Under the pieces are notes generated by a model. That model did not search any database. It saw only the letters and a program-made list of their open reading frames with translations, and was not told where the DNA came from. Below are positions 7,683 through 62,851 of a stretch of DNA of 64,000 nucleotides, piece by piece (position 1 is the stretch's first letter; each line of letters opens with the position of its first letter). The stretch comes from Terrisporobacter mayombei (GTDB lineage Bacteria > Bacillota > Clostridia > Peptostreptococcales > Peptostreptococcaceae), in contig NZ_JAHZMP010000001.1 of the NCBI RefSeq assembly GCF_020748465.1, positions 124,001 to 188,000 of the forward strand, given 5' to 3'. Made by a program: the position numbers and the translations under genes.

Positions 7683-9218
7683 CTACATTACATCTTTATT
7701 TTTACTGATTCTTTTTTGTTTTTTCTCATAACTTCCATATAATAAATATGCTATCAAAGTAAACGCTAAAGGACCTGCTATCATTGTTATTGTGCTTACC
7801 AAACCTTCAGATGATTGTATAGTTGGTTGTATTACTGTAAATACATTTGCAAAACCTACTATAAAAGTTACTATTATTGCAAATATTGTTGCTGATGTTT
7901 GTGTTTTATATATCATAAAAGGACTTTCAATTTCCCCATTTAATTGCTTCTTCTTAAACTTTATAAATGCCAACGATAAGAACATGTATGGAATTGTCAT
8001 AGCCACATTTGTCATTAAAGCTAGTATATTAAAGAAGGCTGATGCGCTCTTTCCTCCAAATGATACTATAGCTATAATAATTATTACTATTGCAGCTTGA
8101 ACTTTCATTGCATATACTGGCATACCATCTTTTAATTCACCAATTTTTCCAGGCCAAATTTCTTTTGGAGATCCTTGTATTAATGTTTTTAAAGGTGAAT
8201 AAGTTAATGTAAAGAATGCTCCTGTTAATGCTAAGAACATTGATAATCCTACTAATCTAGCTGTCCATGATCCTATACTTAATGCTACTGCCTCACTAGT
8301 TCCAAATCCTATACCAATTTGATATCCTAAGTTTTTCATTAATACATATGCAACATTTCCTAAGTGAACATTATCTGAGTTTAGTATGGTATTCCAATTT
8401 GTAAACATACCACATGCAAATATACCTATTGCATATCCAACTGATATTATAATAGCAGAAATCATAACACCTTTTGGGAATGTTTTTTCTGCATTTTCAG
8501 TTTGATCAACTAGACCTCCAACTACTTCTAAACCTCCAAATGCAAATATTGCAAAAGTTAAAAATGAGAATATACCAGTCATTGATTGGTAGTCAGGACT
8601 TGGAGATGTTGTAAATGATTGAGCCACATTATTTATAGGCTCTGATAATCCACCATTTGCAGCAAAAACACATATACCACCAATTAATAAAACTAAATTT
8701 AATAAAGTAACTGCTGTTCCACCAATAGAAGTTATTTTACTTATTTTATCTAGACCTTTACTTCCAACAAATGTAACTAGTAATATCCAGGCTATTCCTA
8801 ATATTCCCAAAGTTTGAACTGAAGTCAATCCAAATAATGACCAAGTAGTTGTCATGTCACTTCCAAATATAGCGTTTGATAATGGAACCCATATTCCTGA
8901 ACCAACGTTTACCATCCATATTATGTAAGATGCATACCACATAAATGTTCCAATAAATGCATATTTTCCACCTACTGATTTTTCCATCCAAGAATACATT
9001 CCACCTGTTTCGTGTTTAAATGCAGCACCATACTCTGACATCATAAAAGCATATGGAATAAAGAACAAAACTGCACTAAATACATACCAAGGTATTGCAG
9101 AATATCCCATTAAAAAGAATGCTCTTGGCATATTTGTAAAGCCAAACACCGATGTAAAAATCATAAGTATTAAGGATACTAGTGTAAGTTTTTTTGCATT
9201 GCTACTTTCATTCGACAT
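7683..9218 (-). CDS. yjeM: YjeM-type amino acid permease (glutamate:GABA antiporter family)
   Basis: 511 residues and about 12 hydrophobic segments of the APC superfamily. The N-terminus (LILMIFTSVFGFTNMPRAFF, then IPYAFMMSEYGAAFK and ETGGMYSWMEKSVGGKYAFI) matches the YjeM/GadC branch very closely from memory. The ribosome site AAGGGGG lies seven bases before the ATG. It follows the M18 aminopeptidase gene by 26 bases on the same strand, so an operon that clips and moves amino acids is likely. The transported amino acid is not determined by the sequence. Confidence 0.88.
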   Translation of the reverse strand: MSNESSNAKKLTLVSLILMIFTSVFGFTNMPRAFFLMGYSAIPWYVFSAVLFFIPYAFMMSEYGAAFKHETGGMYSWMEKSVGGKYAFIGTFMWYASYIIWMVNVGSGIWVPLSNAIFGSDMTTTWSLFGLTSVQTLGILGIAWILLVTFVGSKGLDKISKITSIGGTAVTLLNLVLLIGGICVFAANGGLSEPINNVAQSFTTSPSPDYQSMTGIFSFLTFAIFAFGGLEVVGGLVDQTENAEKTFPKGVMISAIIISVGYAIGIFACGMFTNWNTILNSDNVHLGNVAYVLMKNLGYQIGIGFGTSEAVALSIGSWTARLVGLSMFLALTGAFFTLTYSPLKTLIQGSPKEIWPGKIGELKDGMPVYAMKVQAAIVIIIIAIVSFGGKSASAFFNILALMTNVAMTIPYMFLSLAFIKFKKKQLNGEIESPFMIYKTQTSATIFAIIVTFIVGFANVFTVIQPTIQSSEGLVSTITMIAGPLAFTLIAYLLYGSYEKKQKRISKNKDVM

Positions 9219-9244: not shown

Positions 9245-10630
9245 TTATTTTATAAATTGTTTGTAGCCTCTATACATTTCATAAATATCCACTTTAGATA
9301 TTACTTCATAAGGGGCATGCATGCTTAGCACCCCAACACCACAGTCAATAACTTGCGCTCCATAATTAGCTAAAATAAATGCTATAGTTCCCCCACCACC
9401 TTGGTCTACTTTTCCAAGTTCTGCAGTTTGCCATGCTATATTTGCTTTATTGAATATATTTCTAATTTCAGATACAAACTCGGCATTTGCATCACTACTT
9501 CCTGCTTTTCCTCTTGCTCCTGTATATTTTGTAAGTACAACACCACTACCTATTTTGCATGAGTTGTTCTTGTCATATACTGATGCAAAGTTTGGATCAT
9601 ATCCAGCTGTAACATCTGCTGATAGCACTTTAGAGTTGTAAAATGCTCTTTTTACCTTTAATTCACAGTAATCTTCTTGTAGATTTACAAGCTCAGATAC
9701 CACGTTTTCAAAGAACTTTGACTTCATTCCTGTGTTACCTTCAGATCCTATTTCTTCTTTATCAACACAAATTACAGATGCTGTATACTCTGGATTTTCT
9801 ATATCAAATATGGCCTTTATTCCTGCAAAGGAACAAACTCTATCATCATGACCATATGAAATTATCATAGATCTATCTATTCCTAAATCTTTAGCAAATC
9901 CGGCAGGTACTATTTCAATTTCTGCACTTAGGAAGTCTTCTTCACTCATTCCGTATTTTTCATTTAATAATTTTAAGATTGTGTATTTTACTTTATCTGA
10001 TTCTTCATTTTCATTAGGCATATTTCCACATAATACGTTTAAATCTTCTCCACCTATACCATCACTCATTTTTTTAGAATTTTGATCTGCTGATAAATGA
10101 GGTAATAAGTCAGTTATGCAAAATACTGGATCATTTTCTCCATCACCAATAGATATTTCCATAGATGTACCATCTTTTAATATTACAACTCCATACATTG
10201 CTAAAGGAATTGTAACCCATTGATATTTTTTAATACCACCATAATAATGAGTTTTTAGCATTGCCAAATCAGTATCTTCATAAAGAGGATTCGCCTTTAA
10301 GTCAAGTCTAGGAGAATCAATGTGACTTCCAATAATTTTCATACCTTCTGATATATTTTTTTCACCTATTACAAATAGTGCTACTCCTTTGTCTCTGTTA
10401 ATGGCATATATCTTTTGTCCAGGCTTTATCTCCTTGTCTAACATTGCATCTTCCAAAGATATATAGCCCCTTTCCTTAGCCATATTTACAATTTCTTTTA
10501 CGCATTTTCTTTCTGTTTTACCACGGTCTAAGAATTCCATATACTCTTTCGAGTACTGAAAAACGTTTTCGCACTCATTATTTTTTCTTACAACATCCCA
10601 TCCATTTTTTAATTCGTAATTTAATTTCAT
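9245..10630 (-). CDS. apeA: M18 family zinc aminopeptidase
   Basis: 461 residues from the ATG at 10630, chosen because GGAGGG sits eight bases upstream; the five extra codons to 10645 would start before it. M18 signatures are present: the first metal-ligand motif GSHIDSPRLDLK near residue 90, EEIGSEGNTG with the catalytic glutamate near 295, and SSDANAE near 390. The C-terminal end carries GVGVLSMHAPYEV with the last histidine ligand. It is a cytosolic exopeptidase for acidic or neutral N-terminal residues, first gene of a likely two-gene operon with the permease downstream. Confidence 0.92.
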   Translation of the reverse strand: MKLNYELKNGWDVVRKNNECENVFQYSKEYMEFLDRGKTERKCVKEIVNMAKERGYISLEDAMLDKEIKPGQKIYAINRDKGVALFVIGEKNISEGMKIIGSHIDSPRLDLKANPLYEDTDLAMLKTHYYGGIKKYQWVTIPLAMYGVVILKDGTSMEISIGDGENDPVFCITDLLPHLSADQNSKKMSDGIGGEDLNVLCGNMPNENEESDKVKYTILKLLNEKYGMSEEDFLSAEIEIVPAGFAKDLGIDRSMIISYGHDDRVCSFAGIKAIFDIENPEYTASVICVDKEEIGSEGNTGMKSKFFENVVSELVNLQEDYCELKVKRAFYNSKVLSADVTAGYDPNFASVYDKNNSCKIGSGVVLTKYTGARGKAGSSDANAEFVSEIRNIFNKANIAWQTAELGKVDQGGGGTIAFILANYGAQVIDCGVGVLSMHAPYEVISKVDIYEMYRGYKQFIK

Positions 10631-11028
10631 TATACATCCCTCCAAAATATTTTATATTATGAATATAATTATGCTAAATGACTTACTAAATTAAACATAT
10701 GTATGTTTTCACTTACTTTTATTATTTGTTTAAATTCTAACAACATCATTTTCGAATTTCAACAAAAAAAATGTTTTCGCAATAGTAAATATTTTCTATT
10801 TTTTCGAATTATTTGAAATATTAAATATTATTTTTCTAACTATTCAAATTTCATTAGTTACTAGATTTTTATTTGTGAAAAATTTAATTATTTAATCAGT
10901 AATAGAACACTTCCATTAAAATAAATTGAACTCTACAAATCTTAACTTGCTTTTTTTAAAAAAATGAGTACTTTAAATATGAACATATCAAATGAAAAAT
11001 AGATAAAATTACTTAAACAAAATAAAAA
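10631..11028. other. AT-rich intergenic region
   Basis: About 400 bases between the aminopeptidase start and the terminator of the EAL gene. I see no open frame with a ribosome site, no repeat and no structured RNA. The aminopeptidase promoter should lie here, but no convincing -35/-10 pair stands out. Confidence 0.5.
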
Positions 11029-11053
11029 TACTGGAATGAAATATCATCCCAGT
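11029..11053 (-). terminator. Terminator of the EAL gene
   Basis: ACTGGGATGAT-ATTTC-ATTCCAGT-type hairpin followed by ATTTTTATTTT on the minus strand. Confidence 0.7.
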
Positions 11054-11122
11054 ACAAAGTCTAAATTTTTAGTTTTAATTCATATATACATATCAATATG
11101 TATATTTATTTACAGCTTATTA

Positions 11123-12739
11123 TTATTTCACAGTGAACTTTTCCAATTCTTCAATAGGTAAGGGTTTAGAGTAAAAGTATCCTTGAATATATAAATTATT
11201 ATGATATATATTTTTTATTTCATCAATTTGATATTTCTCCTCAACACCCTCAATAATAAAGTATTTATTTGTTAGTAATGTTACATTAGACATAAATTTT
11301 ATTACTTCATTGTTGATTTTCGATTTTGCTATATTATCAGCAAAATATTTATCTAATTTGATAATATCAAATGCTACTATTTCTAACATATTTAAATTTG
11401 CATATTCTATTCCAAAATCGTCTATAGCAATTTTATACCCATTATTTTTTAAGATTCCTATGGTAGACTTTATGCCTTCTAAGTCTTTAAAATGAATGTT
11501 TTCTAAAATTTCTATGCAAATACTTCCCTTTTTAATTTTATTTTTATTTGCTATATCTATTATTTTATTTATAAAAGCTTCATTTTCTAATTCTTCAAAT
11601 GATAAATTAATAGATATATAAAAGTCTTTATTTTTATAATATTCATAATTACTTATAATTTTATAATCATGAATTGCTCTTTCTAAAACCCAAAGCGTCA
11701 TCTCAAAATACATATTTGATATTTCAATATCTTTTAAAAAGCATGAAGGCAGTAATATTTTATTATTTTTATCTTTTAATCTTAATAAACTCTCAAAACC
11801 AACTACTTCATTATTATTAGGGTTAACTATTGGTTGATAATATAAAGTAAAGTTATTTTTTTCTTTGTTTTCTCTTATCTTTCTCCTTAGTATTATTTTT
11901 TTAATAACAGGATATATAATCCTATATGATATAAAGACTACTAGTAAAATCACACAAAATAAACTAATTGAATTAGTTACTATAATTTCTTTTCTAAAAT
12001 ACTTGTGGTATATAAATAATAATTTATTGTAATATTTAGACTTATATTTTTCATTAATAATTGTATCAAACTTTTTTACTATATCTTTACTATTTTCATT
12101 CCCCGCAATATAAGCAACACCAGATGAATAGTTAAATATATTATTGTAATTATTTTTTAAACTATAACTTTTAGGTAAAGATGTTACATCAGCTCTGCCA
12201 GTTTCAAGCATATTAACACATTCATCAAGACTTTTAGCTTCTATTAAATCCAGTTTTATATTCTGTCCTCCAAATGCATTATTTATCCAACTGGCAGTTA
12301 TATCACCTTTGACATATGCGAATTTCTTTCCATTTAAATAATTTACATCTCCATAAACAACATTCTTATCTTTTGTATATATGCTTTGGTCATCTAAAGA
12401 TATATTATTAACTGAGTAAAATAGCTTTTTTGCCCTATCTTCTCCATAATGCACACCTAATAATATATCAATTTCATTGTTTTTTAATTTTTCTATGGCA
12501 TTATCAATACTAACATTTACATATTCATATGTTATATTAGAATCTTTGCACAAAACATTTAATAAATCATTATAATATCCAGTTATATTATTATTCTTAT
12601 CCTTATAGTAATAAGGTTCATATAAGTATAACCCTACTTTTATTGTTTTATTATTTTCATATGCAAAAATATTTATTTTTGAAAAAACTATCACAAAACA
12701 TATACTTAAAAAGAGTATTTTTCTTATTTTTTTAACCAT
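11123..12739 (-). CDS. Membrane c-di-GMP phosphodiesterase: solute-binding sensor domain plus EAL domain
   Basis: 538 residues from the ATG at 12739 (AAGGGGG five bases upstream; the frame opens at a TTG inside the ribosome site). Residues 1-25 are a signal or anchor segment. About 28-240 is a family 3 solute-binding domain (IKVGLYLYEPYYYKD, then GYYNDLLNVL), so it senses a small ligand outside the cell. One membrane helix follows near 250-280, then a cytosolic EAL domain to the end. All key EAL positions are present: ESLLR (for EALLR), NLSFEE, EILE, DDFG, KLDK, EGVE and QGY. No GGDEF domain. The protein should hydrolyse c-di-GMP, so it is a candidate antagonist of the riboswitch-controlled adhesin in this window. 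Monocistronic. Confidence 0.9.
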   Translation of the reverse strand: MVKKIRKILFLSICFVIVFSKINIFAYENNKTIKVGLYLYEPYYYKDKNNNITGYYNDLLNVLCKDSNITYEYVNVSIDNAIEKLKNNEIDILLGVHYGEDRAKKLFYSVNNISLDDQSIYTKDKNVVYGDVNYLNGKKFAYVKGDITASWINNAFGGQNIKLDLIEAKSLDECVNMLETGRADVTSLPKSYSLKNNYNNIFNYSSGVAYIAGNENSKDIVKKFDTIINEKYKSKYYNKLLFIYHKYFRKEIIVTNSISLFCVILLVVFISYRIIYPVIKKIILRRKIRENKEKNNFTLYYQPIVNPNNNEVVGFESLLRLKDKNNKILLPSCFLKDIEISNMYFEMTLWVLERAIHDYKIISNYEYYKNKDFYISINLSFEELENEAFINKIIDIANKNKIKKGSICIEILENIHFKDLEGIKSTIGILKNNGYKIAIDDFGIEYANLNMLEIVAFDIIKLDKYFADNIAKSKINNEVIKFMSNVTLLTNKYFIIEGVEEKYQIDEIKNIYHNNLYIQGYFYSKPLPIEELEKFTVK

Positions 12740-12828
12740 TCTATCCCCCTTCAATTTTAAGTATTTTCACCATTAATATTTTATGGTAAAAAAAGTAATA
12801 ATTCAAGCTTCTAATAATTAAAAAGTGC

Positions 12829-12858
12829 TAATCTAAAATTAGCACTTTGGTTAAAAAT
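12829..12858. terminator. Hairpin between the AlsT-type and EAL genes
   Basis: AAGTGCTAAT-CTAA-ATTAGCACTT hairpin with an A run on one side and a short mixed tract on the other; most likely a secondary terminator for the AlsT-type gene. Confidence 0.6.
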
Positions 12859-12925: not shown

Positions 12926-14347
12926 TTACATAGCTTTTTCTTCTCTATCATCTCTCCAATGTTCAATGTTTTCTAATCCTTTTATGTTAGAAGCATCAAA
13001 TACTGGTTCTTTTATTCCAGCTTTCTTTTGAGCTGTGTAATCTTGTAAAGCTATAAAAGCATATTTACCAAGTAAAGCTATAGCTATTAAGTTTATTATT
13101 GCCATTAGACCCATAAATAAGTCTGCTAAATTCCAAACTATTTCTACAGTTGCTACTGAACCAAATAAAACCATACAAACAACTAATGCTCTAAAAACAT
13201 TTAACACTGTTTTATTGTTACTCATAAATTCTATATTTGATTGACCATAGTAATAGTTACCAACTATAGAACTAAATGCAAATAGCAATATACATATTGC
13301 TAAAAATACATATCCTATTGATCCTATGTGAGAACTTAAAGCTGCCTGAGTTAATTGTATTCCGTCAAGTCCTGCTGTTGAATAACCAGGGTATAACAGT
13401 ACAATAAATGCAGTACATGAACAAATTACTATAGTATCTGTAAATACACCTAAACTTTGGATTAAACCTTGTTTAACTGGATGAGTAGTATCTGCAGTTG
13501 CCGCAGCATTTGGAGCAGAACCCATACCTGCTTCATTTGAGAATAAACCTCTTTTTATACCAACTAATATCATACCACTCATTGAACCTACTGCCATTTC
13601 TCTAAATCCAAAAGCACTTTCAAATATAGTTAATATTACTCCTGGTATTTCTGTTATATTAATTGCCACAACAAATAAAGCAACTAATATATACATAACT
13701 GCCAATACTGGCACTATTATTTCAGAAACTTTTGCAACTCTGTGAACACCACCAAATATTACCAATGCTGTTAGTATAGCAATAACTACTCCTATTACAA
13801 ATTTATCTATTCCAAAAGCATTGTTAAATGCAGCTGTGATTGTGTTTGATTGAACTGCATTAAACACAAATCCAAAACATATTGTTATAAGAATTGAGAA
13901 TAACATTCCCATTTTTTTACTTCCAAGACCTTGCTCTATGTAATATGCAGGTCCTCCTCTAAATCCTTCACCATCTTTTATCTTAAATATCTGTGCTAAT
14001 GTACTTTCAACAAAGCTTGATGCTGAACCAATAAGAGCTATTAACCACATCCAAAATACTGATCCTGGTCCTCCAGCAACAACTGCCATTGCAATACCTG
14101 CTATATTACCAGTACCAACACGAGATGCTGTTGATATACAGAAAGCTTGGAATGATGAAACTGCTCCTTCTTTCTTCTCTCCCTTTGCTCCATCACCTAA
14201 AAGTCTAAACATTTCTCCGAAATATCTAAATTGTACAAACTTTGTCCTAAAAGTAAAGTAAAGTCCTAACACAATTAACATTACTATAAGAACTTTTGAC
14301 CATAAGAAGTCATTAAAACTTAATACTAAATTGTTTAATAATTCCAT
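12926..14347 (-). CDS. Sodium:alanine/glycine symporter (AlsT/DagA family)
   Basis: 473 residues from the ATG at 14347, which has GGAGGG nine bases upstream. About ten hydrophobic segments. AlsT landmarks: STASRVGTGNIAGIAMAV near residue 75, GGPAYYIEQGLG near 135, and FSNEAGMGSAPNAAATADT near 275. Members carry alanine, glycine or glutamine with Na+. The 250-base upstream region contains a 13-bp inverted repeat (14472-14517). Not preceded by a glycine riboswitch, unlike some family members. Confidence 0.92.
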   Translation of the reverse strand: MELLNNLVLSFNDFLWSKVLIVMLIVLGLYFTFRTKFVQFRYFGEMFRLLGDGAKGEKKEGAVSSFQAFCISTASRVGTGNIAGIAMAVVAGGPGSVFWMWLIALIGSASSFVESTLAQIFKIKDGEGFRGGPAYYIEQGLGSKKMGMLFSILITICFGFVFNAVQSNTITAAFNNAFGIDKFVIGVVIAILTALVIFGGVHRVAKVSEIIVPVLAVMYILVALFVVAINITEIPGVILTIFESAFGFREMAVGSMSGMILVGIKRGLFSNEAGMGSAPNAAATADTTHPVKQGLIQSLGVFTDTIVICSCTAFIVLLYPGYSTAGLDGIQLTQAALSSHIGSIGYVFLAICILLFAFSSIVGNYYYGQSNIEFMSNNKTVLNVFRALVVCMVLFGSVATVEIVWNLADLFMGLMAIINLIAIALLGKYAFIALQDYTAQKKAGIKEPVFDASNIKGLENIEHWRDDREEKAM

Positions 14348-14471
14348 TATATTTTTCCCTCCAATAATATTCATATTTTATTTCTTGTTTTATTAATGCA
14401 AAAAATGCATAATCTATTCACACTTCATTCATTTAAGCTAATTATAAGATATTTTTTCTTAAATTACAACA

Positions 14472-25270: not shown

Positions 25271-25476
25271 AAAAAGGACAGAGTAATAAGCATACTAAAA
25301 TTAAGTATCTTATTACTCTGTCCTTTTGCCAGTTGGTTATAGCCACGTAGGCGACGGTATCCGTTCTCTCCAAAGCTTCGTCAAATAATCTTCCTTTTGC
25401 CTGTCAGTTTCAAAAAAGATTAAGATAAATTCTTTTTTTTGCTTCTTCGGCCTTACATTTAAGTAATGTCTAAGAT
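25271..25476 (-). promoter_or_regulatory. Tandem glycine riboswitch with terminator
   Basis: Minus strand. Aptamer 1 (25476-25384) is closed by AATCTT/AAGATT and has GCCGAAGAAGCAA and GAAACTGACAGGCAAAAGG, the class core. Aptamer 2 (about 25393-25281) follows directly: GACGAAGCTTTGGAGAG, a CGGATACCG hairpin, GTGG and CTGGCAAAAGGACAGAG. Its P1 is CTTTG/CAGAG. The 3' P1 strand is also the 5' arm of a terminator, GGACAGAGTAATAAG paired with CTTATTACTCTGTCC and followed by TTTTT (25271-25324). Glycine binding should prevent termination. Layout and linker match the well-known gcvT tandem switch; aptamer 2 is compact. Confidence 0.9.
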
Positions 25477-25582
25477 TATTATCATCCGATCATATTTATT
25501 TTACTATTATATTTTATAATATATATTTTCATTGTCAATATATAATTGGGATTGCTCTTTAAATTATGTATCTTACACATAT

Positions 25583-28462: not shown

Positions 28463-28802
28463 TAAGTAAATCAGATAATCGCGGGTAGAGATTTTCTCTA
28501 CACGAGGAAAGTCGGAGCTCCACAGAGCAGGGTGCTAGGTAACGCCTAGTGGGAGTGATCCTAAGGAAAGTGCAACAGAAAACAACCGCCACTTTTGTGG
28601 TAAGGATGAAAAGGCGAGGTAAGAGCTCACCGTTTCTTCAGTGACGAAGAAAGCCGTGTAAACCCCACCCGGAGCAAGTCCAAGTTAGGATGAAAAAAGA
28701 TGCTGCTCGCATCTTCCAATTGGTAGGACGCTTGAGCTTATTGGTGACAATAAGTCTAGAAAGATGATTATCTAATACAGAACTCCGCTTATAGACTTGC
28801 TT
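28463..28802 (+). ncRNA. rnpB: RNase P RNA, Firmicute (class B) type
   Basis: Conserved blocks are in order: GAGGAAAGTCGGAGCTC near the 5' side, GTGCAACAGAAA and AACAACCGCC, GAAAGCCGTGTAAACCCCACC, GGAGCAAGTCCAAG, and the 3' block ATACAGAACTCCGCTTATAGAC. The ends AAGTAAATC and GACTTGCTT pair as P1. It is the catalytic RNA that trims tRNA 5' ends. A strong terminator follows. Ends are set from the P1 pairing, so they may be off by a few bases. Confidence 0.96.
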
Positions 28803-28822
28803 ATTCTAATCTATATGAAATT

Positions 28823-62690: not shown

Positions 62691-62718
62691 TGACATAGTT
62701 TTTGAAAAATAATATACT
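62691..62718 (+). promoter_or_regulatory. Sigma-A promoter of the adenine riboswitch-add transcript
   Basis: TTGACA and TATACT with a 16-base spacer, a near-consensus match ending 12 bases before the aptamer. Confidence 0.7.
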
Positions 62719-62730
62719 TAGTAGAAATAT

Positions 62731-62851
62731 ATATTTCGTATAACCTCAATAATATGGCTTGAGGGTCTCTACCAGAAACCAATAATTTCTGATTACGAAG
62801 AATGCTTACTTTAATTTAGTAAGCATTCTTTGCAATCAGAAATTTTTTTTA
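62731..62851 (+). promoter_or_regulatory. Adenine-type purine riboswitch with terminator
   Basis: The aptamer (62731-62800) has the P1 arms TTCGTA/TACGAA, the conserved core TATAACCTCAATAATATGG, then GGGTCTCTACCAGAAACC, and ends in TTCTGATTACGAAG. The specificity base in GAT-T-ACG is U (C in guanine switches), so adenine is expected. The terminator (62783-62851) pairs AAATTTCTGATT with AATCAGAAATTT and AAGAATGCTTAC with GTAAGCATTCTT, then a run of eight T. It shares its 5' arm with P3 and P1, so ligand binding should prevent termination and switch the gene on. Confidence 0.95.

Follow-up and report, generated by a model that had tools for sequence, protein, structure and literature searches.

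An SBP-EAL membrane sensor of Terrisporobacter mayombei and its probably incidental proximity to a c-di-GMP-II riboswitch array

RmcA of Pseudomonas aeruginosa, one of the closest described systems, carries PAS and GGDEF domains in addition to its sensor and phosphodiesterase domains. In this L-arginine-responsive protein, an external SBP_bac_3 domain controls an EAL phosphodiesterase (PMC8846402), and the ligand is known for few of the SBP_bac_3 sensors that serve c-di-GMP enzymes; RmcA is the only one named in a 2022 review (PMC8846402). CdgH of Vibrio cholerae likewise takes its c-di-GMP input through family-3 solute-binding domains, but it has tandem PBPb sensors and the opposite enzyme (GGDEF). 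The nearest solved EAL by sequence, PdeB of Listeria monocytogenes (Lmo0131; 4q6j), is an EAL domain alone without a sensor and is a phosphodiesterase active in vitro (PMC4125290). On the output side, the Clostridioides difficile adhesins CD630_28310 and CD630_32460 have c-di-GMP-II ON switches upstream, and all four class II switches of that species are ON switches (PMC6200980). Our literature search found no characterised SBP-EAL protein in clostridia and no paper linking Terrisporobacter with c-di-GMP. The gene described here lies in a stretch of 64,000 nucleotides of T. mayombei (the window, i.e. the whole stretch of DNA that was analysed), with the following features around it.

11123..12739, minus strand: SBP-EAL gene, encoding a signal peptide, SBP_bac_3 domain, transmembrane helix and EAL domain (Pfam, hydropathy, motif numbering)
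12822..12848, minus strand: terminator-like hairpin upstream of SBP-EAL, 12-pair stem and T run, after the alanine symporter gene
11028..11055, minus strand: terminator-like hairpin downstream of SBP-EAL, 12-pair stem and T run, before the M18 gene
12778..12806, minus strand: candidate SBP-EAL promoter TTGAAT-17-TAAAAT, weak (9/12 match)
12926..14374, minus strand: Na+:alanine symporter of the AgcS family, upstream neighbour
9245-10645, minus strand: M18 aminopeptidase, downstream neighbour
7683-9218, minus strand: YjeM-type permease, downstream neighbour, 26 bases from M18

The SBP-EAL gene begins with an ATG codon preceded by a good ribosome site (AGGGGGAT), and an alternative TTG start lies 15 bases upstream of this ATG, overlapping the ribosome site. 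Pfam matches were found to SBP_bac_3 at aa 38-249 (E 1.2e-15; PF00497 positions 6-131 of 132) and to EAL at aa 286-526 (E 6.9e-47; PF00563 positions 2-236 of 236, the whole domain), with no other Pfam domain in the protein, which is without PAS, HAMP or GGDEF. Hydropathy revealed two hydrophobic segments, a signal at ~aa 8-26 and a single transmembrane helix at ~aa 250-275, which place the SBP domain outside and the EAL domain inside the cell with a short linker between them. The family match, export signal and membrane anchor of an SBP_bac_3 sensor are thus all present, and the Pfam domains and hydropathy bear out a preliminary description of the region as far as it joined an external solute-binding domain to an EAL domain. 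A single-sequence AlphaFold model of the protein had a mean pLDDT of 39. Unlike in RmcA, a single transmembrane helix is all that links the SBP domain to the EAL domain, and most of the amino-acid pocket has been lost. Relative to the sister genome G066, dN/dS was 0.11 for the EAL domain and 0.32 for the SBP domain (neighbouring genes, 0.05-0.12), which indicates purifying selection, strong on the EAL domain, and a functional protein that is maintained. Overall, SBP-EAL is a real, maintained membrane sensor of an already known type, whose loop 6 is specific to the subfamily and whose pocket is unusual. Cotranscription with either M18-YjeM or the alanine symporter was rejected because of the terminator-like hairpins on both flanks and, judged from the sequence, SBP-EAL is a transcription unit of its own; promoter-like matches in the region showed no excess over shuffles.

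The sensor profile was nearest to amino-acid binders, AncQR foremost, and the pocket was read at E17, F58, T78, R83 and D167 in AncQR numbering (PMC5431781). SBP-EAL has tyrosine or a gap, isoleucine, histidine, arginine and proline at these positions, i.e. four of the five are replaced, the pocket threonine and (in the window protein) the aromatic among them, and only the carboxylate arginine is retained. This arginine, R102, is conserved in 12 of 15 sequences, and neither the side-chain acid nor the ammonium-binding aspartate occurs in the pocket of any of the 15. The SBP-EAL proteins of the G049 and G057 genomes (L070, L072) have lost the carboxylate arginine. The pocket contacts of CdgH (glutamates, threonine) are also absent in SBP-EAL (PMC5431781). 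In CdgH, ammonium can be bound by alternative contacts (PMC5431781), so amino acids are still conceivable as SBP-EAL ligands. The safest prediction is that the protein binds a carboxylated small molecule, which may be other than a classical amino acid since only the pocket arginine is retained.

The neighbouring genes suggest an alternative explanation for the sensor, which we regard as possible but doubtful: SBP-EAL would sense a nutrient of its neighbours (M18, YjeM, alanine symporter) and couple amino-acid or peptide supply to c-di-GMP. The nearness of the profile to amino-acid binders is consistent with this, as is a paralogous SBP-EAL gene that stands, in both G066 and G067, directly before a second YjeM-type permease, the permease being 72% identical to that of the window. 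However, SBP-EAL has different neighbours in other genera, and the two missing acids in every pocket also argue against a nutrient of this kind. The G066 paralogue (L073:7753-9345) is an open frame of 530 aa, and most of the sensor has been deleted from the G067 paralogue (L063:7746-8927).

In EAL domains, loop 6 helps to position the dimer and the metal. When aligned with relatives and with Listeria PdeB, the EAL domain shows E316, N378, E410, E413, D440, D441, K461, E497 and Q519, among them every residue expected for metal, substrate and general base (E, N, E, D, D, K, E, Q), and the catalytic residues are the same as those of PdeB. They were retained in every full-length relative aligned, and the loop-6-stabilising glutamate E413 was conserved throughout the subfamily along with the metal-binding and catalytic residues. 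The claim in the preliminary description that all catalytic motifs are there therefore stood for the metal, substrate and catalytic residues but not for loop 6, which reads DDFGIEYANL in place of the canonical DDFG(T/S)GYSSL. The stretch DFGIEYAN departs from the published pattern of active EALs, DFG(A/S/T)(A/G)(Y/F)(S/T) (PMC2994820); absence of the canonical loop lowers the claim of activity, and membership of the EAL fold family does not require it. PdeB differs in having a canonical loop 6, DDFGKGYSSL. The variant DDFG[VIM][EQK][YH][SA]N was common to all 18 SBP-EAL sequences read, and three longer relatives (L033-L035) have DDFGV[ED]YSN. The altered loop is thus an inherited trait of the whole subfamily and no sign of decay. 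Two EAL proteins of ~910 aa from another genus (L036 and L038) have a likewise non-canonical loop 6, DDFGTENANL.

An EAL domain left weak or dead by its loop 6, acting as a c-di-GMP receptor with the SBP domain or a partner protein as its signalling target, would account for a variant loop in every SBP-EAL relative when the canonical DDFG[TS]GYSSL is found in most other EALs of this bacterial family. The loop-6 glycine replaced in SBP-EAL is 79% conserved over 8082 EAL domains (PMC2994820), which also favours a loss of activity. We nevertheless consider such a receptor unlikely, because the metal and catalytic residues and E413 are all kept across the subfamily, some of which the receptors LapD and FimX have lost, and the GGDEF genes found nearby in relatives suit a degrading partner. 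Given its catalytic residues and altered loop 6, SBP-EAL is likely, though not assured, to hydrolyse c-di-GMP.

The second element of the region is a riboswitch array upstream of an adhesin gene.

4063..4146, minus strand: c-di-GMP-II aptamer 1, RF01786 76.3 bits, terminator ~4075-4022 (fold)
3869..3952, minus strand: c-di-GMP-II aptamer 2, RF01786 80.8 bits, terminator ~3881-3828 (fold)
3382..3465, minus strand: c-di-GMP-II aptamer 3, RF01786 80.8 bits, terminator ~3394-3341 (fold)
3196..3279, minus strand: c-di-GMP-II aptamer 4, RF01786 76.3 bits, terminator ~3208-3155 (fold)
1..2684, minus strand: adhesin after the array, truncated by the window edge and complete in L056:9409-14685

All four aptamers were complete and scored 76-81 bits against a gathering score of 53.5, and the units of this array (4146-3196) are the only c-di-GMP-II switches of the genome. 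Every unit is followed by a separate intrinsic terminator, and the 3′ strand of P1 forms part of the terminator's 5′ arm, so a ligand-bound P1 would block the terminator and each unit is a predicted ON switch. The suggestion that lower c-di-GMP closes the adhesin switch agrees with this terminator placement and holds if the EAL domain is active. The C. difficile adhesin switches are single whereas the window array has four in series, from which, following the argument of PMC9481103, the adhesin response should be steep. The complete adhesin is a Cna-like protein of 1758 aa with repeats, an Asn-rich linker, a TPTTG-type sortase anchor and a hydrophobic tail. A 2022 survey of tandem riboswitches lists c-di-GMP-II doublets and triplets only, and has already reported these upstream of COG4932 surface protein genes in Paraclostridium and relatives (PMC9481103); four-in-series arrays were also found at G027:C1:2266705-2267167 and G055:C7:1069617-1070057. 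Aptamers 1 and 4, and 2 and 3, have pairwise equal scores and near-identical sequence, as if a pair had been copied mirror-wise, and an open reading frame of 52 aa and no known kind (3613-3771, minus strand) sits between units 2 and 3. Also present in the window are a glycine riboswitch (25314-25489, minus strand), a purine riboswitch (62716-62815, plus strand) and an RNase P RNA (28463-28807, plus strand).

From the nearest aptamer, aptamer 1 (4146), to the 3′ end of SBP-EAL (11123) we measured 7.0 kb, as the preliminary description had it (7 kb), and the riboswitch array that it named was confirmed by RF01786; five genes lie in between. That description had also proposed that the two form an input-output pair, with the caution that proximity alone is weak evidence. 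A dedicated local pair, in which SBP-EAL sets the adjacent adhesin switch, fits their common strand and 7 kb spacing and the same arrangement in the sister genome G066, which is colinear (three-unit array at 2258194-2258668, SBP-EAL at 2265641-2267254). By chance, one particular enzyme would fall within 7 kb with a probability of ~0.3%, and any of the ~nine turnover genes with one of ~3%. Within the genus, the window genome (G000) and G066 carry both, G067 (T. petrolearius) has remnants of both (three fragments of SBP-EAL, and a two-unit array followed by a single short fragment of the adhesin), and G068-G070 have neither SBP-EAL nor the class II array, with M18 and CNNM homologues on separate contigs. 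The T. petrolearius locus L017 is largely colinear with the window. However, IlvD, GntR, LprI and SDR genes near the G067 remnants are damaged too, and since these are unrelated neighbours the joint loss of SBP-EAL and adhesin may reflect regional decay. The transcription units are also separate, and outside the genus SBP-EAL and a class II switch are separated by 109-152 kb in G027 and G053 and lie on different contigs in G012, G013, G049 and G051, and G057 has SBP-EAL without a class II switch. Neither adjacency nor cotranscription is thus conserved beyond close kin, the arrangement being intact in the window genome and G066 only, and chromosomal closeness is unnecessary because c-di-GMP diffuses. 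We therefore regard a dedicated pair as possible but improbable, and the comparison across genomes agrees with the caution rather than with the proposal. That the two lie 7 kb apart is probably incidental and looks like an accident of a few related species, and SBP-EAL may influence the adhesin through the global c-di-GMP pool.

The wider distribution of the subfamily was also compared among genomes. C-di-GMP-II switches were found in 11 of 12 genomes that carry SBP-EAL and in 23 of 59 others (Fisher p 0.001, uncorrected for kinship), as expected if both belong to c-di-GMP-using lineages. In G049 and G057, a CdgH-like gene with tandem SBP-SBP-GGDEF domains adjoins SBP-EAL (L070:6021-8246, L072:6734-8872), and in G027 a GT2-BcsB-GH113 cluster has SBP-EAL as its last gene (L060). 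Overall, the subfamily is found in the company of c-di-GMP and matrix genes and has no fixed partner. In G028 (L059:793-6648), a LuxR-type regulator gene and TasA/SipW-like genes follow a class II switch, with an SBP-EAL gene truncated by the contig end 15 kb off; this was rejected as a conserved SBP-EAL/adhesin pairing because of the genes that follow the switch. A plasmid search returned SBP-EAL genes of Paraclostridium plasmids (37-39% identity), the remaining matches being distant EALs.

The c-di-GMP proteins of the genome itself were counted by family searches of an assembly of 4.16 Mb in 325 contigs (contamination estimate 7.33). Three EAL matches were found (SBP-EAL, a GGDEF-EAL and an EAL-HDOD protein), of which only SBP-EAL and GGDEF-EAL are of the catalytic type; EAL-HDOD, with a partial EAL match, was rejected as a further phosphodiesterase. 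There are six GGDEF proteins, GGDEF-EAL included, and two clear HD-GYP proteins with one further partial match. Three c-di-GMP-I switches were also found; flgB/flgC-like genes follow one of them, and another precedes a Ca-binding-type surface protein.

Taken together, we favour, with moderate confidence, a single-pass sensor phosphodiesterase that is controlled by a small molecule and acts on the global c-di-GMP pool, its proximity to the adhesin being probably incidental. The analysis shows the domains and residues, the selection on them, the terminator-like hairpins on either flank, the overlap within the switches and the distribution among genomes; which class of ligand binds, whether the enzyme is active, which way the ligand acts and what follows for the adhesin are inferred. 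The external SBP domain would close around a small, probably carboxylated molecule, and its movement would be passed through one transmembrane helix and the short linker to alter the EAL dimer and thereby the hydrolysis of c-di-GMP to pGpG. The enzyme would act on the general cellular pool and, as turnover enzymes are few in this genome, could plausibly shift all c-di-GMP outputs, i.e. the class I switch genes (flagellar ones included) and the adhesin after its four serial ON switches. A working phosphodiesterase would lower adhesin expression through these switches. More tentatively, the SBP-EAL proteins may form an uncharacterised subfamily of the Peptostreptococcaceae, with the loop DFG[VIM][EQK][YH][SA]N and a non-classical carboxylate pocket, in which loop 6 couples ligand to catalysis. 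The c-di-GMP network is small (two catalytic-type EALs, six GGDEF and two or three HD-GYP proteins), so that one extracellular sensor could be linked to defined riboswitch outputs, and the loop 6 altered throughout the subfamily offers a clean test case for loop 6 setting EAL activity.
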